DNA from: a virus | Length of the DNA: 31,803 nucleotides | IMG/VR virus record: IMGVR_UViG_3300028827_000068 | Span: 1-31,803 of that record | Direction: 5' to 3' (one strand) | Part shown: positions 1,434 through 31,280 of the stretch, piece by piece | Layout: every line of letters begins with the position of its first letter | Position numbering within the stretch: position 1 is the stretch's first letter | Program-made: the position numbers and the translations under genes | Notes under the pieces: model-generated | Told to the model about the DNA's origin: nothing | Database searches by the model: none | Seen by the model: the letters and a program-made list of their open reading frames with translations, nothing else

Positions 1434-2297
1434 ATGGCTACACATTCAGTATTTATAAGTCATAGCTCAGTTACAAAAGAATTGGCTAGACAAATTTACT
1501 ATAACGCAATCTCAAATGGTGTTTCTGTTTGGTATGACGAAGCTCTATTAACTTTAGGCGATGAGCTAAGAGATTCTTTGATTAAAGGGATAGAAAACAG
1601 TGCCTCATTCTTGTTACTTCATTCTAAAGCTGCAATGGATAAGCCTTGGGTTCCCCTTGAAATGGCTGTCGCAAGAAAAAAATATGAGAAAGATAATAAT
1701 TTCAAGATACGAGTAGTCAAACTTGACGATGAACCACTTCCGGATAAATTTTGGAATAGATTTCTTTATGAAAAATGGAATTCTTCTGACCAAGGCGGCT
1801 CAATTATTAAAATATTGGAGGCATTAACTGGAAAAAGAGGGATTGTTGCAATAACTGCGTCATCAGTTTTAACTTCTGATCCCTCATCACATTTCGTAAA
1901 TCAGAGTGCAACAATTGCTGAACATACTAGGAATTATGTTCTCTGGTATCTATGTCATATAAAAAAGTTAATGCAATCGGTAGTATCAGTTGCTTATGAA
2001 CAAGAATTAAGAGATACTTTAGAGAAACTTTTACATCTTTTCTTATTCGAGAATATACCAGCAATTCATGGTGGTGTGATTCCTGTAGAACCTGGTGTAT
2101 TCGAACTGATCCACGCAAATAGGATGAGGGTCCCTCCGCGTATTACTGTTAACGGATTGCCTGATAAATACAAATGGGAATTGGTACAGGGAAACGAGCT
2201 GTTTTCACGAATAAGGATATTAGAAGCTAATAGTGATAATACCGTCAGTCATCCAGTTCCTTTGGCGATATCAGTTGAATTGGATGCGGAGTTATAA
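1434..2297 (+). CDS. TIR-domain protein, likely NAD+-cleaving defence effector
   Basis: Residues about 4-120 form a TIR domain: strand A FISHSS (7-12), the VSVWYDE segment (30-36), and the helix motif W72-V-P-L-E76, which matches the WxxxE signature whose Glu is catalytic in NAD+-hydrolysing TIR proteins. Residues about 120-287 are a separate unassigned region with a helical stretch (about 160-200) and a C-terminal beta-rich part, possibly the sensor or partner-binding half. There is no membrane segment. TIR enzymes in bacterial immunity deplete NAD+ or make signal nucleotides after phage sensing; a role here is inferred from family and prophage context. The gene is solitary and AT-rich relative to the structural genes. 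The start ATG at 1434 has a weak ribosome site. No obvious partner such as a pAgo, Thoeris ThsA or STAND NTPase is adjacent. Confidence 0.85.
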   Translation: MATHSVFISHSSVTKELARQIYYNAISNGVSVWYDEALLTLGDELRDSLIKGIENSASFLLLHSKAAMDKPWVPLEMAVARKKYEKDNNFKIRVVKLDDEPLPDKFWNRFLYEKWNSSDQGGSIIKILEALTGKRGIVAITASSVLTSDPSSHFVNQSATIAEHTRNYVLWYLCHIKKLMQSVVSVAYEQELRDTLEKLLHLFLFENIPAIHGGVIPVEPGVFELIHANRMRVPPRITVNGLPDKYKWELVQGNELFSRIRILEANSDNTVSHPVPLAISVELDAEL

Positions 2298-5405: not shown

Positions 5406-8400
5406 TGAGTTTTTACTCCTTCAACGTCCCATTTCTGGTGTAACCTGTAGAGCTTTTTGTTGGTCTTGATTAGCTCTACTTGCGTAGCCCTGATCTCCTG
5501 ACGCAAAGCTTTTATTTCAGCAGCAATATTGGCAAAGCTGCCGGGCATCTGGCCTGAATTGATTGCGTCAAGAAATTCCAATCCCTTGCGCGAAACTACA
5601 TATTCGCCAAATTGCAGGGCTGCTACTCCGTCCTCGCCTTGAGGCACAAGCAGTCGATTTATATATCCGCCCGTTTTCCAGGCATAACCAGAGGCATCAT
5701 CATCCGGGCCACCACCTACGCCTGTAGTATCCCAACCGCCACCAGTATCCGCCCTGTCTCCACCAAAGCTCCAACCACCGCGAGATAGACTGCGGGCCAT
5801 GTCACTAGGGTAGCCCATAGCTTCATACGCTTTTTCTCTGCTGTCATAGCCATAAAACCCAGGATTACTTACCACATCCTTGGTCAGCGCTTCGATGGCT
5901 TCTTTGCCATAGGCCCCGCTCCATATTTTATCTGTCAATTCCTTGCCAAAAGTATGCGCGGCCATTGCTATCCTATCGGCATAAGAGTCGGCCCTGGCTG
6001 CCTCCATCACCTCTTGCACGCGCTCAAAAAATTCCTGCGGCGTTAAATTTAAATCCTCTAACCTGGCAAAAGTATAGGTAGGCACGCCATAGGGAGACAG
6101 TTTATATCCGCTGGGCAAAGCGTAATTGCCTGGCATGGCAAACGCTTGGGATGCGTCGTCGTTTATCATAGCCCCAATCTGCCGGCCTAGTCGGTCTCCA
6201 AACCTGTCCTCAAGCATATCCAACATCTTTTCGTTTTTGCGCAGGCCTAGCAGATCCGCAATCTTGTCCATTGTATAGGCGGTTAAAGGAGATAACGCCC
6301 CGACCGCTGCCCCAGGCAGGCCTAACCCTAGCAATGATGCCAATGCACCCGTAACAATATGCGCAGGCGTGGAGTATTCCTGCACACCAAACGCGTACAT
6401 GCCTATGTCGCCGATAATACCCCCCAGCAGTCCATTGAAAGACCGGGAAAGAAAACCTCCCCAGGCCATCTTTTGGGCAATGCTATTGATTTGGCTGGTT
6501 GAAATATTGTATCCGGCGCTTTGGAGTTGCTGTCCGATGGCTTGTGTTCTGCTGTAGTTGTTATAAGCCACCGCGCCACCAGCCAGGGCAGAAGACATCA
6601 TGTGTCCCATAATGTTACCGGCTATCTGAGCTCTGGCAAAACTCTCATAACCTGTGTAACCAAAGGTTTTAGCAGTACCGACTTCAACAGCACCTACAAC
6701 TGAGTCAAAAAAGTCGGCAACAGAAGTTCCCCCGCTGCCTATAGCTTCCCTTATCTTAGCTGCCTGTTCACGGGGGATAACCATTTCACCAGTTTGTAAT
6801 TTGGCAATTATTTCATCGTCACGGACAAACGGGGTTCCTTCGTGGAAAATCGCATCAACAAAGCCAACGCCGAACTCCATAAGTTTGCTTGTGGCCCATT
6901 GTGTTGTCATTTTTGCCACAGCATCGGTCATGGTTCTCAACATCGACTTCCAAAACGATTCCCAATAGTCCTCGAGGTCCTTCATATCGCCGGTAATCCC
7001 GTCGAATAGGATATCTGATACAGTGCTGCTGGATTTGCGACTAAAATCCTGGACTATGTCATAGCCTGCTTGTGCCCAAGTGTATTGCTCCTTCTGTAAC
7101 TCCTGCCAGCCCAACTTCATGCCGGCAAAGAAATTCTGGCTGGCTAGAGTTTGCTCGCGAAGTGCCTTCTGTGTGGCTTCGACTTCTTTTTTATTGATCT
7201 TTTCTATTTCAGCTTCGGCCCACTTGGCGACTTTGATTTTATCCGCACCGGCATCTATATATGCCTTAGCCTGCAGCCTGATCTGCTCCCGCTCGAACCC
7301 ATACTGGCCAAGAGTGAGCTGTTTGTATTTATCTGTAAATTCTTCTTTTAGTCTTAGCTGTTCCTCAATACGGTCGTTAATGATCTTGGTAGCTCTCTCA
7401 TCGGCTTTTACTTTTCCTGCATAATAAGACATCCAGCCATCTTTTAACTTGGCCAGATCTTTTAGTTGCTGCTTTGTTAGCTGACTTTGTATCGTTTGAG
7501 CGGGTTTGGCTGCATTTAGTTTTTTTGCACGTTTATTTGCAGCGTCCAGCCCTTTATAATAGGCCAACCATAAATCCTTTAAAGCCTCCGCGTTACCTAG
7601 ATCACGCCTAATTTTTGCTCTATATGTACTGTGCCCTTCTTCCAACCATTCTCCTGTATCCCAATGTCTCCTGCCTATAATTCCATCCCATATATTTAAA
7701 AAAGACTCAGAAATTCTTGCACTACTTTCTAACGTACTCCCTATATCAAGACCTGTATTTAGTTCTTGCAAGACTGTATTTAGTGTTTGCAGTATGGTTA
7801 ATGCGGTACCAACCTTCCAAGAACCAAAAAGATATCTGCCTATAATCCCAGTCCCAGCGGCGCCAACAATTTCATCGGGCAATTTATTGTAAACAGCAAA
7901 AACGTCATCAAGACCTTGGCCGATTTTAATTATCCCCTTCCCTGTCTTAACCAGCCCTGTTGCCAGATCTCCAATGGCCTGCTGGGTTTCTTTGTCTTTT
8001 AAGATGTCGGTCAATTCGCCCAGCGCATCTATAGCAGCGTCCATATATTCGCCGCCAGCCAGGGAATTTTTGAAGTCCAGCCAGGCCTCGTTAAACTTGT
8101 TTGTGGCTCTTGTTGCATCGTCCACACTGCCTGAATATTTCTGCTGCAGCACTTGAGCTAGCTTAGGGAGTAAGTCGCTTGCTGCAACCTCGCCCTTTTC
8201 CAGCATTTTATCCAGCTCAGCCGTGGACACTCCCATGGCCTGGGCAGCCAGTTGAAATGCACCTGGAAGCCTTTCGCCCAACTGTCCACGGAGTTCTTCG
8301 GCCTGAACCTTGCCTTTAGAAATCATCTGAGACACGGCATTGAGCGCCCCTTGAAGTTGTTCCGAAGACAACCCCAAGGTCGCGCCTGCTTTTGCAATGC

Positions 8401-8785
8401 CTAAAAATATCTGTCTGGCATTTTCACCTTCCAGTGCCGTATTTTTGGAGGCGGCTATGAGTTGTTTATATGGGTCGAGCAGGGCGTAAAAATTTTGGCC
8501 CAACTCATCAGCAGTCTTGCGCAAAAACTGAAATTCCCGGCCTGCTGCCTGGGTTGAACCTGTAATCTCGACAAAAGCTCTTTTTGTCGCATTCAAGCTT
8601 TTGCCAGCTTCAAAAATCTGCTGGGCAAACATGCCCATGCCAAGGCCTGCAATGCCGGATTGTAAGGAAAACAATCTGTGCTTAATTCCTTCCAACTCAA
8701 TTCCGATTCGCCTACTGGCTGCCTGAAATACCTTACTGGCCTCGTCTTTGGCACTGACTATGATTTGCGTATAAGCCGTGGACAT
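5402..8785 (-). CDS. Tail tape measure protein
   Basis: At 1127 aa it is by far the largest gene, located between the gpG/gpGT pair and the tail tip genes, exactly where lambda H lies. The N-terminal 250 residues carry the conserved tape-measure domain (ITGSTQAAGREFQFLRKTAD, then GLSSEQLQGALNAVSQMISK, then LRGQLGERLPGAFQLAAQAM, then KFNEAWLDFKNSL). Long helical or coiled segments follow at about 450-620, with hydrophobic glycine-rich stretches at about 720-870 that may enter the host membrane during DNA delivery. Its length would imply a tail of roughly 170 nm by the usual length rule; that is an inference. The start ATG at 8785 has GGAG eight bases upstream. Confidence 0.93.
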   Translation of the reverse strand: MSTAYTQIIVSAKDEASKVFQAASRRIGIELEGIKHRLFSLQSGIAGLGMGMFAQQIFEAGKSLNATKRAFVEITGSTQAAGREFQFLRKTADELGQNFYALLDPYKQLIAASKNTALEGENARQIFLGIAKAGATLGLSSEQLQGALNAVSQMISKGKVQAEELRGQLGERLPGAFQLAAQAMGVSTAELDKMLEKGEVAASDLLPKLAQVLQQKYSGSVDDATRATNKFNEAWLDFKNSLAGGEYMDAAIDALGELTDILKDKETQQAIGDLATGLVKTGKGIIKIGQGLDDVFAVYNKLPDEIVGAAGTGIIGRYLFGSWKVGTALTILQTLNTVLQELNTGLDIGSTLESSARISESFLNIWDGIIGRRHWDTGEWLEEGHSTYRAKIRRDLGNAEALKDLWLAYYKGLDAANKRAKKLNAAKPAQTIQSQLTKQQLKDLAKLKDGWMSYYAGKVKADERATKIINDRIEEQLRLKEEFTDKYKQLTLGQYGFEREQIRLQAKAYIDAGADKIKVAKWAEAEIEKINKKEVEATQKALREQTLASQNFFAGMKLGWQELQKEQYTWAQAGYDIVQDFSRKSSSTVSDILFDGITGDMKDLEDYWESFWKSMLRTMTDAVAKMTTQWATSKLMEFGVGFVDAIFHEGTPFVRDDEIIAKLQTGEMVIPREQAAKIREAIGSGGTSVADFFDSVVGAVEVGTAKTFGYTGYESFARAQIAGNIMGHMMSSALAGGAVAYNNYSRTQAIGQQLQSAGYNISTSQINSIAQKMAWGGFLSRSFNGLLGGIIGDIGMYAFGVQEYSTPAHIVTGALASLLGLGLPGAAVGALSPLTAYTMDKIADLLGLRKNEKMLDMLEDRFGDRLGRQIGAMINDDASQAFAMPGNYALPSGYKLSPYGVPTYTFARLEDLNLTPQEFFERVQEVMEAARADSYADRIAMAAHTFGKELTDKIWSGAYGKEAIEALTKDVVSNPGFYGYDSREKAYEAMGYPSDMARSLSRGGWSFGGDRADTGGGWDTTGVGGGPDDDASGYAWKTGGYINRLLVPQGEDGVAALQFGEYVVSRKGLEFLDAINSGQMPGSFANIAAEIKALRQEIRATQVELIKTNKKLYRLHQKWDVEGVKTQ

Positions 8786-8807
8786 TTTAGTGACTCCGGT
8801 ATATAGT
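8779..8807 (+). promoter_or_regulatory. Sigma70-type promoter for the plus-strand moron
   Basis: TGGACA (8779-8784), 17 bp, then TATAGT (8802-8807) are each five of six matches to the sigma70 consensus at optimal spacing. The predicted start of transcription (about 8814) falls at the AAAGGAGG ribosome-binding site of the following small gene. The promoter overlaps the first codons of the divergently read tape measure gene. Confidence 0.6.
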
Positions 8808-8826
8808 TCTTACAAAGGAGGAGTTA

Positions 8827-9072
8827 ATGCAGTTCAAAATAGATCCGCCACCTGAGCAAAAAAAGGCACAAGAGAAAGCCTCGCGAGGACTACAATCTAT
8901 TGAATTAAAAGAATCACAAATAGATGCTAAAAAAGTTGTCATAGTCGGTCTTAAAATTCCTTTTTGGGACATTGTATCACTTATGGTTAAATCTGCATTT
9001 GCTATACTTCCTGCGACATTTATATCGTTTTTTTTATGGCGAATTTTAATTTTCATTCTGAATAGTTATTAG
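8827..9072 (+). CDS. Small membrane protein, moron inserted between gpT and the tape measure
   Basis: This 81-aa gene reads opposite to the surrounding late operon and fills precisely the gap between the end of the gpT extension (9087) and the tape measure start (8785). It has its own promoter and a strong AAAGGAGG site five bases before ATG. The N-terminal 45 residues are charged and soluble (PPPEQKKAQEKASRG). Residues about 45-80 are hydrophobic (ILPATFISFFLWRILIFIL), giving one or two membrane spans with the N-terminus probably in the cytoplasm. I do not recognise the family. An independently promoted small membrane protein in a prophage tail operon is the classic form of a moron; superinfection exclusion or entry blocking is a plausible role but unproven. 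Confidence 0.75.
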   Translation: MQFKIDPPPEQKKAQEKASRGLQSIELKESQIDAKKVVIVGLKIPFWDIVSLMVKSAFAILPATFISFFLWRILIFILNSY

Positions 9073-9086
9073 CTATTTGCCACTCA

Positions 9087-9679
9087 TTACTGTTTCTTGT
9101 CTGCTTTATTAATTGTCCACCATTCCAAAGCCTGTATTTTCTCCAGGTTGGCCCTGGACATTTCTATCCCCAAGGATGCGGCAACCCGGTACAAGGCATT
9201 GTAATCCAGCCCAATCAATTTCCCATTCGGGGCAACCCTCCACTGAGTCTGTATTGCAAGCCAGAGTTCCCAGGCAGGATAATTCTCCGGCCAGAGTTCC
9301 GGACATTTTCCTTCGCATTCTAAGCAATTTAATTTCTCTCCTCTTTGTTTGGCGGCTTTCTGGCATGCCTGGCAGTATTTTAGACCGTCTCCTCCGTAAT
9401 ACTGCCAGACACTAAGGAGTTTTTTACCGCGTCAGGTCCTCCCACAGAGTAACGCAGGACCAGATTAACCAAATAGGAGAGATCAGCAGCGGGCCAGTCA
9501 TCAACCGAATCAACAAACTCAGGATAACAGAGGCCAACCACATATTTGCGGAACTCATGCAGACCAATTTCTCCCTGGGCCAACTTCTGCTGCTTTTTCT
9601 CAACTTCTGCTTGATCTTTAGCTTTGTAGCTGCGTAACTCTATGATTTTATTCTGTTCTGGAAGTTTAATTTTGCTCAT
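9087..9679 (-). CDS. gpGT-like tail assembly chaperone, made by -1 frameshift
   Basis: The gpG frame continues in the -1 frame from the slippery heptamer at 9425-9419 for 110 more codons to TAA at 9087. The extension begins LLSVWQYYGGDGLKYCQACQ, has two Cys pairs (CQAC and CLECEGKC) suggesting a small zinc site, and ends in a conserved-looking region (WLAIQTQWRVAPNGKLIGLD, then MSRANLEKIQALEWW) typical of T-like extensions in lambda-type phages. By analogy with lambda, the rare fusion binds the tape measure while gpG binds tail tube subunits. The extension has no ribosome site of its own and stops just before the moron gene. The join is one long protein with no in-frame stop after the shift. 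Confidence 0.85.
9380..9679 (-). CDS. gpG-like tail assembly chaperone
   Basis: The 99-aa product is the major product of the G/GT pair. ATG at 9679 has AAGGAG five bases upstream; the GTG two codons earlier overlaps that site and is less likely. The protein is helical and charged (DQAEVEKKQQKLAQGEIGLH) with a conserved-looking C-terminal helical part (WPAADLSYLVNLVLRYSVGG). Position between the tail tube gene and the tape measure gene matches lambda G. The slippery site sits near its 3' end, so a minority of ribosomes make the longer fusion. Confidence 0.85.
   Translation of the reverse strand: MSKIKLPEQNKIIELRSYKAKDQAEVEKKQQKLAQGEIGLHEFRKYVVGLCYPEFVDSVDDWPAADLSYLVNLVLRYSVGGPDAVKNSLVSGSITEETV
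9419..9425 (-). promoter_or_regulatory. Programmed -1 ribosomal frameshift site (A AAA AAC)
   Basis: Read on the minus strand in the gpG frame, the codons are gtA AAA AAC, a perfect X XXY YYZ slippery heptamer. It lies 13 codons before the gpG stop, with an in-phase -1 frame that stays open for 110 codons. A GC-rich, partly self-complementary stretch downstream could act as a stimulator, but I did not find an unambiguous pseudoknot. Confidence 0.85.
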
Positions 9680-9692
9680 TTTCACTCCTTAA

Positions 9693-18899: not shown

Positions 18900-19190
18900 T
18901 TACGCTGCCATATCGTACTGGTTGGTAGATAAATCTTCAATGTTTAAATAAGTGTAAACTAAATTATTTTGTTCTGTAGCTGGCTTTTTCTGTATCAAAA
19001 AAGTGCCACTCGCGCTCCATAGAACCAAACATTTTTCTGTTGCCTCTAAATAATTAGACAAACAAAAATCGTCAATTTTATTATAATAATTAAACCCAGA
19101 TTCTTCTAAGTCAATTTCCAGTTCAGTATCAGAAACATTGTCAAAATAATTATCTATTTTTTTAAGCAGATTTTTAATATCTAAGGTCAT
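18900..19190 (-). CDS. Putative antitoxin of the TAC cassette (CmdA-like)
   Basis: The 96-aa product is acidic in its first half (DNVSDTELEIDLEESGFNYY) with an N-terminal helix, and its last 25 residues are rich in hydrophobic and aromatic side chains (NNLVYTYLNIEDLSTNQYDM), like the chaperone-addiction tails of TAC antitoxins. The ATG overlaps the toxin stop (ATGA), so the two are translationally coupled. I do not recognise it by sequence alone; the call comes from size, acidity, position between an ADP-ribosyltransferase-like gene and a SecB-like gene, and the tail. Confidence 0.65.
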   Translation of the reverse strand: MTLDIKNLLKKIDNYFDNVSDTELEIDLEESGFNYYNKIDDFCLSNYLEATEKCLVLWSASGTFLIQKKPATEQNNLVYTYLNIEDLSTNQYDMAA

Positions 19191-19762
19191 ATATAACCTT
19201 CCTTAATTTTTTCAAAATCTATAATACACTCATGTTTTTTAACACATATTATTAATTGTGTATAATAAATGTTTGGCCGAACAAAAAGCCTATTCCCTAA
19301 ACAATTAAAAGCTCTTACAGTATCAATTTCATCAAATTTGTATGTCAAGAAATTTATTAGTGCAGAAACTGCTATTTCCTTCTTCTTTGTTTTTTCTGAC
19401 AAACGACTTTTGAGTTTTAAAATAACATTGATATGTTCTCGCCTTGTTAAATCTAAACATCGACCAAGATTAATTATAGCACGGAAAACAACATATTTAC
19501 AGCCACCTTTTACGCTTTTAGTCTTTTTTTTTGCCCAATTCTGTGCTTCTTGTATAGAACTTTCAAAAAAATATACTCCATCCCCAAGATATTGATGCTC
19601 ACCTGTACTTGTTCTAAATTTCTTTTCTCTTAATATGTTGCACGCACTTGCGAAATCAGTGCCATGGTAAGCGTCAGGGATTATTTTCTCGAAATTTTCT
19701 ATAACTAAATCAATTTGATATTCTGTCCGTCCTAACAAATTACTTCTAATTTGAGAGTTCAT
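19187..19762 (-). CDS. ADP-ribosyltransferase-like toxin (CmdT-like)
   Basis: The 191-aa protein has an ART/PARP-like N-terminal half: AYHGTDFASA (31-40), where the YHGT His would hold NAD+, a TST pair (51-53), and LGDGVYFFESSIQEAQNWA (59-77), the 'G-GVYFF ... A-WA' motif of H-Y-type ADP-ribosyltransferases. The strand VVFRAIINLGRCLDL follows. In CmdTAC the toxin ADP-ribosylates mRNA and stops translation during phage infection. Gene order here (toxin, antitoxin, SecB-like chaperone) is the same. The catalytic Glu is not obvious to me. Base composition is clearly AT-richer than the flanking structural genes, and terminators bound the block, both signs of later insertion. Confidence 0.75.
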   Translation of the reverse strand: MNSQIRSNLLGRTEYQIDLVIENFEKIIPDAYHGTDFASACNILREKKFRTSTGEHQYLGDGVYFFESSIQEAQNWAKKKTKSVKGGCKYVVFRAIINLGRCLDLTRREHINVILKLKSRLSEKTKKKEIAVSALINFLTYKFDEIDTVRAFNCLGNRLFVRPNIYYTQLIICVKKHECIIDFEKIKEGYI

Positions 19763-27458: not shown

Positions 27459-27962
27459 TTACTCCTCACAAGCAATGTAGATTTTCTTGAAGTGCCCACC
27501 CTCAAAAACTTGGCCGGCTACATGCTGGAGGCCGTCTTTTAATTTTTGACACTGCTCTTCCACGTCTTTGATTTCCCCGATGATTTGTTGGGCCTCTTGC
27601 TGATCCACCTTGCCATCCTGGAGAGCTTCTCCTGTTACCCGCGCCACGTCGCCCAGCTCGCTGGACAGGCGATTTAATTCTTTCAGGAGTTCAGAACCTT
27701 TTGTGATGCTTGGATGATGGGAAGGAATTTCCAGTTGAGCGTGTAGCCACTCTATGAGGATGTTGTTGCCCAGGGCACGGCATAAGGCGGGGATCCGGTG
27801 GATGCCAGGGAAATACCTGGTTTCATGTTCTTTGAAATATTGTCTTATGGATTGATAAGGAAAGCCGGTTTCCTCGGCTATATCTTCACAAGTCTTGCCA
27901 GAAAGGAGTTTCGCCAGGGTCAAAGCCTGTTTAGCGGTCATATTTTTGAAGTCGTGTCCCAT
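27459..27962 (-). CDS. CII-like phage regulatory protein
   Basis: The 167-aa protein has an N-terminal HTH (KQALTLAKLLSGKTCEDIAE with TGFPYQSIRQYFKEHETRYF), then a helical C-terminal half (SELLKELNRLSSELGDVARV and LQDGKVDQQEAQQIIGEIKD). This matches the CII/CP76-type regulators found after cro-like genes in proteobacterial prophages. It probably activates repressor or replication genes. ATG 27962 has AAAGGAG five bases upstream, and the start overlaps the Cro-like gene by 25 bases. Confidence 0.75.
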   Translation of the reverse strand: MGHDFKNMTAKQALTLAKLLSGKTCEDIAEETGFPYQSIRQYFKEHETRYFPGIHRIPALCRALGNNILIEWLHAQLEIPSHHPSITKGSELLKELNRLSSELGDVARVTGEALQDGKVDQQEAQQIIGEIKDVEEQCQKLKDGLQHVAGQVFEGGHFKKIYIACEE

Positions 27963-28171
27963 GGATTCTCCTTTGGGGTATTGTTTAGGGGGGACTTTTC
28001 ACCATATAAATAAGGCCATAGCTTTTGCAGCGTGTCAGTGCGGATGGACTTCCGTTGGCCGTTTATGAGACGGGTGATGCTGGATTTATGAACATTTGCT
28101 TCTTTAGCTAATTTAGAAGCTGACCATCCTGATAGATGAAGGAATTTTTTTATGTCTTGAGCTACGTTCAT
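27938..28171 (-). CDS. Cro/CI-type HTH repressor (Cro role)
   Basis: The 77-aa protein has one HTH domain: DIKKFLHLSGWSASKLAKEA, then NVHKSSITRLINGQRKSIRT. It reads divergently from the S24 repressor gene, the layout of cI and cro. The ATG at 28171 has no ribosome-binding site, and the promoter -10 is only about 11 bases upstream, so the mRNA may be nearly leaderless. It starts the lytic early operon (CII-like, SSB, replication genes). Confidence 0.8.
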   Translation of the reverse strand: MNVAQDIKKFLHLSGWSASKLAKEANVHKSSITRLINGQRKSIRTDTLQKLWPYLYGEKSPLNNTPKENPWDTTSKI

Positions 28172-28172
28172 G

Positions 28173-28208
28173 GGTGCCAATAGTATACAAATGGCAACCT
28201 AAAGTCAA
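28173..28208 (-). promoter_or_regulatory. Early leftward promoter with operator dyad
   Basis: TTGACT (28208-28203), a short 15-bp spacer, and TATACT (28187-28182) form a probable promoter for the Cro-like gene. The dyad GGTGCCA ... TGGCAACC (about 28173-28199) centred on GTATAC spans the -10 box, as expected for an operator bound by the divergent repressors. Confidence 0.6.
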
Positions 28209-28253: not shown

Positions 28254-29003
28254 ATGGCTGTTAATATGGGATTATACGAAGACATTATTCATGGACTACA
28301 AACTGTAGTTTCAAAAAAATTTGAGGGGAAACCATATCGTTTGGCAAAGTTACTTGGCGAGCGGAAGGTTTCTTATGTTCAGAAAATTTTAAAAGGAGAG
28401 CGTCAGAAAAACCTGCAACTTTTCTGTAGGTTACTTGAAGCAGCAGGAGCTAAAATAACCTTTGAAGAAGCCGACGCTTCCCGTGAAGTCCACTTTGTAA
28501 ATCCGAAAATTGTTAACGCAGAAGAGATTGATGGGCCTGTAGATGATGATTATTTAGCTGTTCCCCTGGCCTCGATGCCTGTTGCTGCTGGGCCAGGTAT
28601 TATTCCGGAAGAAGACATTCAAAGCTGGGTTTTGGTATGGCGTAACCATGAATCTGTCAGACACAGATCAAACCTGGTAGCTGTAGAGATCGGCAAAAAC
28701 CAGCACAGCATGGAGCCAACCCTGCACCCGAAAGATATTGTATTGATAGACCGGAGCGACTTTATCCCCAAGGAGCCGCCCGGGAATATTTATCTAATCA
28801 GAGAACCTGCACCAGATTGTGCCCTGGCCATTAAACGGGTAAGAATACAGGTAAAGGATGGCCAAGAGTTTATCGTTTTTTACTCGGACAACCCGCAATA
28901 TCCGCCTGACTTTTATAACCTGAAAATAGATTACGACAATGACATTAAAAAGGCAGTTATTGGACGTGTTGTCTGGGCCTGGAGCGACATGAGTAAGAAA
29001 TGA
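28254..29003 (+). CDS. CI-type repressor with S24 autoprotease
   Basis: The 249-aa protein has an N-terminal DNA-binding part (about 5-70: YRLAKLLGERKVSYVQKILK) and a C-terminal S24/LexA-like domain. Ser152 in HSMEPTL and Lys194 in LAIKRVR form the catalytic dyad; Ala112-Gly113 in VAAGPG is the likely self-cleavage site. RecA-stimulated cleavage would trigger induction after DNA damage. The start ATG 28254 has AAGGAG eight bases upstream. It keeps the prophage silent and lies upstream of the cargo genes that follow on the same strand. Confidence 0.92.
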   Translation: MAVNMGLYEDIIHGLQTVVSKKFEGKPYRLAKLLGERKVSYVQKILKGERQKNLQLFCRLLEAAGAKITFEEADASREVHFVNPKIVNAEEIDGPVDDDYLAVPLASMPVAAGPGIIPEEDIQSWVLVWRNHESVRHRSNLVAVEIGKNQHSMEPTLHPKDIVLIDRSDFIPKEPPGNIYLIREPAPDCALAIKRVRIQVKDGQEFIVFYSDNPQYPPDFYNLKIDYDNDIKKAVIGRVVWAWSDMSKK

Positions 29004-29013
29004 AGGTTAAATA

Positions 29014-29394
29014 ATGTTCAAAATGCTAATAAGGTTATGTGTCGCGCTAATTCTATTAATTTTCCCGCCACAATTTGCCCACGCAAAACATTTGCATCCC
29101 GAAAAATACTATCAAAACCAATGGTGCGCTGAACATAGCGGCCAAACTGAAGTAACCCTGCCAGACCGCACCCGATGCGACTGCCTAACAGATACCCATG
29201 CAATAGAATTTGATTTCGGTCCCAAGTGGGCTGAAGCTATAGGTCAAGCCCTCTATTATGGCCTACAAACAGGAAAACGACCAGGAATAGTGTTAATTTT
29301 AGAGCAAGAAAGGGATTATAAATACTGGATCAGACTTAATACGGTAATTAAAAATTATAACTTGGCTATAGATACTTGGATGGTTAAACCTTAA
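29014..29394 (+). CDS. Exported protein with nuclease-fold-like motif, lysogeny gene
   Basis: The 126-aa protein has an N-terminal signal peptide (MLIRLCVALILLIFPPQFAHA, with cleavage likely after AHA near residue 24). The mature part has three Cys (WCAEHSG and RCDCLTD), then DTHAIEFDFGPKWAEAIGQA and RPGIVLILE. The spacing D...ExD...K followed by a hydrophobic strand recalls the PD-(D/E)XK nuclease core; this is a resemblance, not a proven assignment. It starts 11 bases after the repressor with AAGG upstream, so it is probably expressed in the lysogen. A periplasmic barrier to incoming DNA is one idea. Small exported proteins of this type are common prophage cargo. Confidence 0.7.
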   Translation: MFKMLIRLCVALILLIFPPQFAHAKHLHPEKYYQNQWCAEHSGQTEVTLPDRTRCDCLTDTHAIEFDFGPKWAEAIGQALYYGLQTGKRPGIVLILEQERDYKYWIRLNTVIKNYNLAIDTWMVKP

Positions 29395-29428: not shown

Positions 29429-30466
29429 ATGAAGCGCTTAACACCAAAAAGAAGAGAATGGTTAATAAGACATCAGTTTTACTGTGAAAAACGGCGAAAG
29501 AGAAATCCACACAAGCGTCGAAAAAGAAAAATAATTAAACCAATACGTGAAACCATAGAAGCCCCAGGGAACTTATGCTTAAAAGAAAATTTTGACGAGG
29601 TGATTAAATTTATTTATAAACTCAAACAAACTATTTCTGGGAATAAAGGGCGTTTTGCTGTTGATTTTGAGCCGATAAGGAAATTATCATCAGGCGCAGC
29701 ATTAATACTCGCGGCCGAATTAGATAGATGGCGTAGACTGTTCAAGTTCAAACTAAAGCCGTGGAAAATAAACGCTTGGGAAAAAGATGTTAGAAGATTA
29801 TTCCATGAATTAGGAATTTTTGAATTACTTAATATAAAAAAGAAAGATAGGAAGATAAAAAGTAAGAAAGGAAGTCTAAAATTTATCAAGTTTATTACAG
29901 GGAGAGAATCACATGGTGAACTTGTTGCACGATTAATAAAAGCGATAGCCCCCATAATTGGAGATAGATATGATGAGAGAAGGTTATACACCGCATTAAC
30001 TGAAGCAATGACTAATGTTGTCCAACATGCTTATCCTGATACTTTCAACTATAAATATCAATTAAAAAATCAATGGTGGCTTACTGGCTCATTTAATCGA
30101 AGAACAGGGGAGATAAACATAATCTTTTATGATCAAGGAGTCGGCATTCCTGCGACTTTACCTTCCTCGGGTTTAATAGACAAATGCCTTCAACTACTTA
30201 AATCGCGTAAACTAGAACCTCATGATGCAAACATGATAAAAGCTGCTTTGGAGGTTGGCAAGACAAGAACAAAACAAAGTTATAGGGGGAAAGGTCTGCA
30301 ACAGCTTCTTGATTTTATAAAATTTCATAAGGGAGAAATAAGAATAATTAGCGGTAATGGTGAATATAGAAAAAGTTATTTGAATGGTAACGATTGTGAA
30401 AAATGTATAAAAAGAGATAATCCACTTGGGGGGACATTTATCGAGTGGTCTCTTTTTTTAAAATAG
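29429..30466 (+). CDS. STAS-like plus GHKL ATPase fusion protein
   Basis: The 345-aa protein begins with a very basic segment (about 5-38), then a STAS-like half (about 60-135: FAVDFEPIRKLSSGAALILA, LFHELGIFELL), then a GHKL/HATPase domain: N-box LTEAMTNVVQHAYP with E192 and N196, G1 box YDQGVGIP (234-241), G2 box RGKGLQQL (286-293) and a final GGTFIEW. There is no phosphorylation His domain, so it resembles anti-sigma-factor-type ATPases rather than a sensor kinase. Two further genes follow closely. The function is unknown; partner switching with the STAS-like DUF4325 protein is plausible. Confidence 0.85.
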   Translation: MKRLTPKRREWLIRHQFYCEKRRKRNPHKRRKRKIIKPIRETIEAPGNLCLKENFDEVIKFIYKLKQTISGNKGRFAVDFEPIRKLSSGAALILAAELDRWRRLFKFKLKPWKINAWEKDVRRLFHELGIFELLNIKKKDRKIKSKKGSLKFIKFITGRESHGELVARLIKAIAPIIGDRYDERRLYTALTEAMTNVVQHAYPDTFNYKYQLKNQWWLTGSFNRRTGEINIIFYDQGVGIPATLPSSGLIDKCLQLLKSRKLEPHDANMIKAALEVGKTRTKQSYRGKGLQQLLDFIKFHKGEIRIISGNGEYRKSYLNGNDCEKCIKRDNPLGGTFIEWSLFLK

Positions 30467-30479
30467 TGGAGGGTGTAAC

Positions 30480-30818
30480 ATGAAGGAATGTATTATAAAT
30501 TTTGTTAATGATTTTACTAAATATCCATCAGGAAGATATAACTCTGATGGACCTTATTCTGGTGAAAAATTTCGTGAAGAGTGTCTAGTGCCTAAATTAA
30601 AGGAGTGCGATAAAGTTATTATTAATATAGATGGTATTATGGGCTTTGGTTCTTCTTTTTTAGAGGAAGCATTTGGAGGTCTTATAAGAAAAAAATATTT
30701 CACAGTAAAAGAAATGCAAAGCAAACTTAAATTTAGATACGAAGATAAATCACTCAAAACATACGAAGAGGAAATATGGATGTACATCGAAGGAGCAGTA
30801 GAAGATAACGATAAATAG
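30480..30818 (+). CDS. STAS-like DUF4325 protein
   Basis: The 112-aa protein has the DUF4325 pattern: FTKYPSGRYNSDGPYSGEKF, then REECLVPKLKECDKVIINID, then GFGSSFLEEAFGGLIRKKY. The SSFLEEAFGGL motif matches the helix after the strand in STAS-like proteins. It is 13 bases after the ATPase gene and shares its direction. In many genomes an ATPase-DUF4325 pair occurs in islands. It may be the partner protein that binds or is regulated by the ATPase. GGAGG is five or six bases before ATG. Confidence 0.85.
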   Translation: MKECIINFVNDFTKYPSGRYNSDGPYSGEKFREECLVPKLKECDKVIINIDGIMGFGSSFLEEAFGGLIRKKYFTVKEMQSKLKFRYEDKSLKTYEEEIWMYIEGAVEDNDK

Positions 30819-30839
30819 GCTAAAAAAGTAAATTAAATA

Positions 30840-31280
30840 ATGTCATCATCAATATCGCTAAAAGATTTTTTAATTCCTATACTTTCGGCTGTATTATCTG
30901 CAATATTTTCTTACTTTGTATCTCGCAAGACGGTGAATGACAGGCTGAACAGGACTTTTTTAAATGATGATATTAAGGAAATATGTAGGCGCATTGAAAA
31001 GTTGGAGAGTAAGGCATCATCTTATTGGAGACAAGAAGGGCAAAATTGTGATCTTGAAGATTTAATTAAAAGTAATTTTAGATATTTAGGTCAAGATTTA
31101 AGGCAATTACCTCAAAGCCAGTATATTCATTATGGTATAGAGAGAAAATTGATTAGATTTCGCATGATATCAACAGGCGGATTGTTTGAGACTTCATATA
31201 AAAAAGCAGAACCAGATCGAATTGAAAAAATTAGAAAAGCAGCCGAGAATTTGAGAGAAGCTGTAATTAAAATTACGTAA
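30840..31280 (+). CDS. Membrane-anchored coiled-coil protein, third member of the module
   Basis: The 146-aa protein has one N-terminal membrane span (FLIPILSAVLSAIFSYFVS, about 9-28), then a charged helical region (NDDIKEICRRIEKLESKASS and DRIEKIRKAAENLREAVIKI). The soluble part should face the cytoplasm. No family is recognised. It lies 21 bases after DUF4325 and before a terminator, so the three genes probably form one operon, perhaps starting from the repressor promoter. It could localise the ATPase/STAS pair at the membrane or act as an effector. Confidence 0.7.
   Translation: MSSSISLKDFLIPILSAVLSAIFSYFVSRKTVNDRLNRTFLNDDIKEICRRIEKLESKASSYWRQEGQNCDLEDLIKSNFRYLGQDLRQLPQSQYIHYGIERKLIRFRMISTGGLFETSYKKAEPDRIEKIRKAAENLREAVIKIT

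Follow-up and report, generated by a model that had tools for sequence, protein, structure and literature searches.

A reverse-oriented membrane-protein gene inserted at the tail chaperone-tape measure junction of a phage, a candidate superinfection-exclusion moron

Introduction

Gp15 of phage HK97 is a superinfection-exclusion moron that blocks DNA injection, and phages escape from it by swapping their tail tube and tape measure protein (TMP) genes (PMC10883804). DNA injection is also blocked by Ltp of TP-J34 and SieA of P22, two exclusion proteins that are associated with the membrane and made in the lysogen (PMC3952083, PMC10883804), and SNIPE illustrates that a membrane-bound defence can act on the TMP during injection (PMC13190303). 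The TMP is likewise the target of Tab from JBD26, an 83-aa moron that is encoded on the minus strand, has its own promoter and is expressed from the prophage (PMC10884400).

Here we describe a gene from a viral sequence of 31,803 nucleotides (IMG/VR record IMGVR_UViG_3300028827_000068), the whole of which is referred to as the window. Like HK97 gp15, which is annotated as 'moron product' and fills precisely the space that separates the frameshifted tail chaperone gene from the TMP gene, it encodes a small predicted membrane protein in the chaperone-TMP slot. However, HK97 gp15 has 62 aa and is encoded in the sense orientation, whereas the window gene is reversed and its product carries the conserved core at the C-terminal side. 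HK97 gp15 has an N-terminal helix and a link to the bacterial protein YebO. With Tab the window gene shares the layout of a small moron placed opposite the late operon, and its orientation and putative promoter agree with this likeness. Tab differs, however, in that it lies between the terminase genes, blocks tail assembly and has an anti-Tab partner, while no partner was seen next to the window gene. Ltp, in turn, is encoded in the lysogeny module, and neither Ltp nor SieA is encoded in reverse at the TMP junction.

Results

A reverse gene with a putative promoter of its own fills the gap between gpT and the tape measure gene

The first-pass annotation had described an 81-aa ORF that reads against the late operon and fills the gap between gpT and the TMP gene, and all of these elements were found at the coordinates listed in Table 1. 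The gene occupies the gap of ∼300 bp from the TMP start (8785) to the end of gpT (9087) and is antisense to both. The naming of gpT was borne out as well, since the slippery site shifts the reading frame of G into the DUF1799-containing T part. The gpG-like ORF itself gave zero family matches; its arrangement with gpT is shared by the IMG/VR contigs L095 and L096. The opposite strand has an ORF of 89 aa (8787-9056), which was considered as the actual gene and rejected, as the homologues belong to the plus-strand ORF. A lysis or holin identity was also rejected, an endolysin-like gene being present at 12.9 kb.

Table 1. Features of the window discussed in the text
Feature	Position	Strand	Details
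SMV-family membrane moron gene	8827..9072	+	81 aa; ATG 8827, TAG 9070-9072
Putative sigma-70 promoter TGGACA-17-TATAGT	8779..8807	+	-35 TGGACA 8779-8784, -10 TATAGT 8802-8807
Shine-Dalgarno (SD) sequence AAAGGAGG	8814..8821	+	5 nt 5′ of ATG 8827; perfect SD (6-mer match)
Tape measure protein (TMP), 1127 aa	5402..8785	-	PF20155 TMP_3 E 1.5e-26; PHROG tape measure E 4.9e-51
gpT part of gpGT tail chaperone, DUF1799	9087..9425	-	PF08809 E 2.2e-15
-1 frameshift site A AAA AAC joining gpG to gpT	9419..9425	-	In-frame slippery site
gpG-like tail assembly chaperone	9380..9685	-	Position and frameshift into the DUF1799 T part
CI/LexA-like repressor (S24 peptidase)	28254..29003	+	PF00717 E 5.7e-7; PHROG repressor E 1.9e-16
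Cro-like HTH regulator, divergent from repressor	27938..28180	-	PHROG transcriptional regulator E 2.3e-7
Predicted secreted 126-aa protein, nuclease-like motif	29014..29394	+	63% identity, E 2.3e-56 to second slot gene of L096

The near-consensus promoter noted earlier is indeed present, and its -35 element falls within the first codons of the TMP gene. Its -10 element lies only 6 nt ahead of the SD sequence, which would give a leader of ∼13 nt if transcription starts near 8814. Over 1.2 kb the promoter is unremarkable, as two of this quality were found against 2.0 expected; in the 90-nt upstream region its score was reached by 1.4% of dinucleotide shuffles (p = 0.014). A good terminator was looked for downstream of the gene, and none was clear. 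The GC content of the gene is 33%, compared with 44% for the window. In its product, a charged N-terminal part of ∼35 aa is followed by a conserved membrane core (residues 35-79), with a hydropathy peak of 2.22 at residues 60-78 that corresponds to a predicted membrane-spanning segment. An 18-kb IMG/VR contig, probably of the same phage, matches the region without a single mismatch over 10,243 bases.

The gene product belongs to a family of small membrane proteins in phages and bacteria

The first single-sequence matches of the 81-aa protein were weak: 45% over 33 aa in Pseudomonas phage PotUPM1 and 38% over 45 aa in an Allochromatium plasmid. The protein belongs to an uncurated, mobile family for which we coined the name SMV in this analysis, after the core 'VDIxMPFxSMVxFMVKxAIASIPA'. 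The conserved core of the family reads VxIxDIxMPFxSMVxFMVKxAxASIPAxxIL, and residues F46, K55, A59, P62 and A63 are invariant across the SMV alignment (A8). The 81-aa protein fits this core by HMM: a model of 57 family cores, from which the window was excluded, returned 39.7 bits (E 1.6e-8 at Z = 1e6), while the best of 2000 shuffles reached 11.9 bits against the same model. This family homology shows that the ORF is a real protein-coding gene, and the earlier call of a membrane-protein gene thus stands. Apart from chance-level matches and those to N-terminal zinc-ribbon and PDZ domains, SMV is absent from Pfam, NCBIfam and PHROGs. A search of solved structures with the profiles of SMV and of the secreted protein described below returned nothing credible.

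We found 23 viral and about 41 bacterial SMV core loci. The family occurs in about 3-4% of the sampled Gammaproteobacteria and Desulfobacterota-type genomes, with 8 of 297 genomes in the phylum of a Desulfococcaceae genome and 14 of 369 in the class of an Oceanospirillaceae genome. Stand-alone members of ∼60 aa are sporadic chromosomal singletons in bacteria, and conserved chromosomal neighbours of the bacterial genes were not detected beyond the Chromatiaceae. Since these genes are chromosomal and lack conserved neighbours, the function of SMV need not be anti-phage. Furthermore, the N-terminal domains vary and include a zinc ribbon and a PDZ domain.

The zinc-ribbon SMV proteins of PotUPM1 and its IMG/VR relatives have the same membrane core and are encoded near the tail chaperone and TMP genes. 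They differ from the window gene in that they are sense-oriented, lie between the genes for the major tail protein and the chaperone, have a zinc ribbon at the N-terminus and often end in a long additional domain. Across the phages, zinc-ribbon SMV genes are mostly sense-oriented and lie between the major tail protein gene and the chaperone or TMP gene, so that expression restricted to the lysogen is not general for SMV. The zinc-ribbon SMV gene of the PotUPM1 group is absent from the related phage phi2. In Pseudomonas phage pAN (L275 3353-4075, +), a different protein with a zinc ribbon and a membrane helix replaces the SMV protein of PotUPM1 in the tube-chaperone slot. In phage CBW1004C-Prop1 (L071), the annotated gp17 (5947-6264, minus) overlaps a plus-strand SMV ORF (5881-6144), and the wrong strand was likely picked for gp17.

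The chaperone-TMP junction is empty in some relatives and filled by reverse genes in others

In Chi, AchV4 and phiWae15 (Casjensviridae and similar phages with related TMPs), T and the TMP gene overlap or abut, leaving an empty junction. To survey this slot, IMG/VR was scanned using an alignment of TMPs, and 80 related contigs were obtained. Among the ten contigs with the closest TMPs, the junction was visible in eight, being empty in three (L095, L100, L101) and carrying a reverse ORF in five. In these five (L094, the copy of the window, and L096, L098, L102 and L103), the reverse ORF starts with ATG, is preceded by a match to the SD over six bases and encodes a strongly hydrophobic helix. 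The same type of reverse ORF was present in the slot of the more distant contig L135 and at the bacterial genome locus L090, of which the TMP is 51% identical. Such ORFs occurred in the slot of 6 of 75 TMP-related contigs (31 kb), the window's own copy included, and at other antisense positions of the same contigs there were none in 466 kb, a control that lies mostly opposite coding sequence and is therefore an imperfect comparison. Together with the SMV HMM score, these counts led us to reject a non-coding artefact.

The slot ORFs represent four unrelated membrane families, namely SMV (the window and L096), that of L098, that shared by L102, L103 and L090, and that of L135. The L096 protein is a divergent SMV member (E 3.6e-4 at Z = 1e6) encoded in the same slot and orientation as in the window. 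No matches were obtained when the other slot proteins were sought among named phages. For the remaining reverse slot genes, promoter scores were no better than those of shuffles (p 0.08-0.80), although their host promoters may differ. The first-pass annotation had considered the site as one not usually used for morons. This view had to be abandoned, as HK97 gp15 occupies the exact slot and related phages use it repeatedly.

The clearest case was provided by the sister contigs L095 and L096, which are 97-99% identical on both sides of the insert. In the empty site of L095, T ends at 2682 and the TMP gene starts at 2684. In L096, by comparison, T ends at 993 and the TMP gene starts at 1652, and the ∼650 bp between them hold two reverse genes, the first of which encodes the SMV protein. 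The identity drops in the 3′ part of T and resumes 4 nt 5′ of the TMP start codon. The designation of the reverse gene as a moron, made in the first-pass annotation, is therefore supported by the insertion test, the flanking genes being adjacent in Chi, AchV4, phiWae15 and L095. Loss or breakage of the ORF with retention of the intergenic sequence had been named beforehand as the pattern that would speak against this designation; the relatives without the ORF proved to be without the intergenic sequence as well.

Neighbours of the slot partner and of other SMV genes point to probable lysogenic expression

The second slot gene of L096 (977-1426, minus) encodes a protein whose N-terminus, read by eye, resembles a signal peptide. 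In the window, its counterpart starts 11 bp 3′ of the CI-like repressor gene. Both belong to an uncurated family of predicted secreted proteins of ∼125 aa with conserved residues E46, D56, E65, D67, Q78 and Y82, which resemble those of PD-(D/E)XK nucleases. As a lead only, this motif would make the protein a candidate periplasmic anti-phage nuclease. Relatives of the secreted-protein gene adjoin repressor genes in Nitratiruptor phage NrS-4 and Dulem virus 31, and a detectable repressor lies within 3 kb of the gene in 11 of 80 IMG/VR contigs. Dulem virus 31 (L176, PP511318.1) is labelled Microviridae, yet it has 35.8 kb and encodes a CI repressor and an exonuclease, so this label is probably a misclassification. 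In two TMP-related contigs, a secreted nuclease-like gene is reversed ∼2.4 kb upstream of the TMP gene (L108 606-920, minus; L109 622-984, minus), which hints that the late genes contain another slot for reverse morons. The idea that SMV and the secreted protein generally go together found no support: both were present in 1 of 19 SMV records (L096), and of 50 records carrying the secreted gene, 2 had SMV as well, plus the window.

Other SMV genes also have lysogeny genes as neighbours. The SMV gene lies directly 3′ of a LexA/CI repressor gene in L071, is convergent with a CI repressor gene in L018 and is near an integrase gene in L026; in L005 and L225 it is reverse to the head genes. Since SMV genes elsewhere adjoin repressors or an integrase and the slot partner gene adjoins the repressor of the window, lysogenic expression of the reverse SMV gene appears likely, in line with what the first-pass annotation had proposed. 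No integrase was seen in the linear window of 31.8 kb, and the temperateness of the phage therefore rests on the repressor and Cro-like genes.

Discussion

The reading that we favour, to which we give an even chance, is that the reverse gene is a prophage-expressed moron whose product, a small protein of the inner membrane, most likely keeps superinfecting phages out at the stage of DNA injection. By analogy to HK97 gp15, TP-J34 Ltp and P22 SieA, such a role is plausible. In this scheme, the gene's own promoter would drive plus-strand transcription in the lysogen. During lytic growth, late transcription off the other strand would silence the moron, leaving the phage's own progeny untroubled. 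The charged N-terminal segment would be cytoplasmic and the SMV core embedded in the inner membrane, where it could interfere with the TMP or with a host membrane protein that incoming tails use for DNA delivery. Self-protection would come about if the moron and the adjacent TMP gene change together, and this could explain why exclusion genes cluster at the chaperone-TMP junction.

Conceivably, the protein could instead be a lysogenic-conversion factor that aids the host in stress, transport or the envelope, apart from phage exclusion. The sporadic chromosomal occurrence of SMV, its lack of shared neighbours and its varied N-terminal domains would fit such a benefit, but the repeated presence of unrelated membrane proteins at the TMP junction, together with the precedent of HK97 gp15, points to the tail and injection interface, and we regard host benefit as possible though rather unlikely. 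Closer to phage exclusion is a Tab-like role, in which a protein made by the lysogen binds the TMP or chaperone of the incoming phage after injection and thereby blocks tail assembly. The size of Tab, its strand, its own promoter and its TMP target (PMC10884400) are all reminiscent of the window gene, which adjoins the chaperone and TMP genes. Tail assembly is cytoplasmic, however, whereas the window protein is mostly membrane core, which renders this role improbable.

It could also be the plus-strand transcript that matters, regulating the late tail genes in antisense fashion with the protein being secondary, since the gene reads toward gpGT and has no clear terminator after it. Yet the protein sequence is conserved in phages and bacteria across unrelated contexts and the slot is empty in sister phages, so we give this idea a very slim chance. 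Very improbable, too, is a small hydrophobic toxin of a toxin-antitoxin pair or a lysis-related membrane protein, even though the gene is a short single-gene unit with a hydrophobic product. At 12.9-13.6 kb the window has an endolysin-like gene together with a small membrane ORF, the reverse orientation is ill-suited to a lysis gene, the slot has no antitoxin ORF, and the conserved PF/K/PA motif and the N-terminal domains are unlike those of typical toxins. Lastly, a spurious or decayed ORF could be suspected from the frequency of promoter-like sites in the region by chance, but the HMM score far above that of the shuffles, the strong SD sequence and the L096 homologue in the same slot and orientation make its probability negligible.

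Beyond the single gene, there is a broader and more tentative idea, which we consider doubtful at present: the chaperone-TMP junction may be a dedicated slot for reverse, lysogen-only exclusion cassettes. These would encode membrane proteins of unrelated origin, in some cases accompanied by a secreted nuclease-like protein, and would be swapped together with the TMP gene that they have to spare, so that a cassette and its self-immunity travel jointly. If this is true, the junction could serve as a map of exclusion genes, which as small antisense ORFs may be missed or placed on the wrong strand by annotation pipelines. Likewise, an unnamed membrane family of bacteria and phages would become a testable candidate for blocking DNA injection. 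The sister contigs L095 and L096 differ mainly by the cassette.

The window contains further genes of note. A row of three genes at 29429-31280 (+) encodes a HATPase-like protein, a DUF4325 STAS-like protein (E 3.8e-15) and a predicted membrane protein; it had no PADLOC match and is possibly an undescribed module. The product of 19187-19762 (minus) resembles the defence component PD-T4-9_A (PADLOC E 3.7e-10) and, by eye, an ADP-ribosyltransferase. In addition, 1434-2297 (+) encodes a TIR-domain protein (PF13676 E 2.7e-15) that is weakly similar to ThsB and to further TIR proteins of defence systems.
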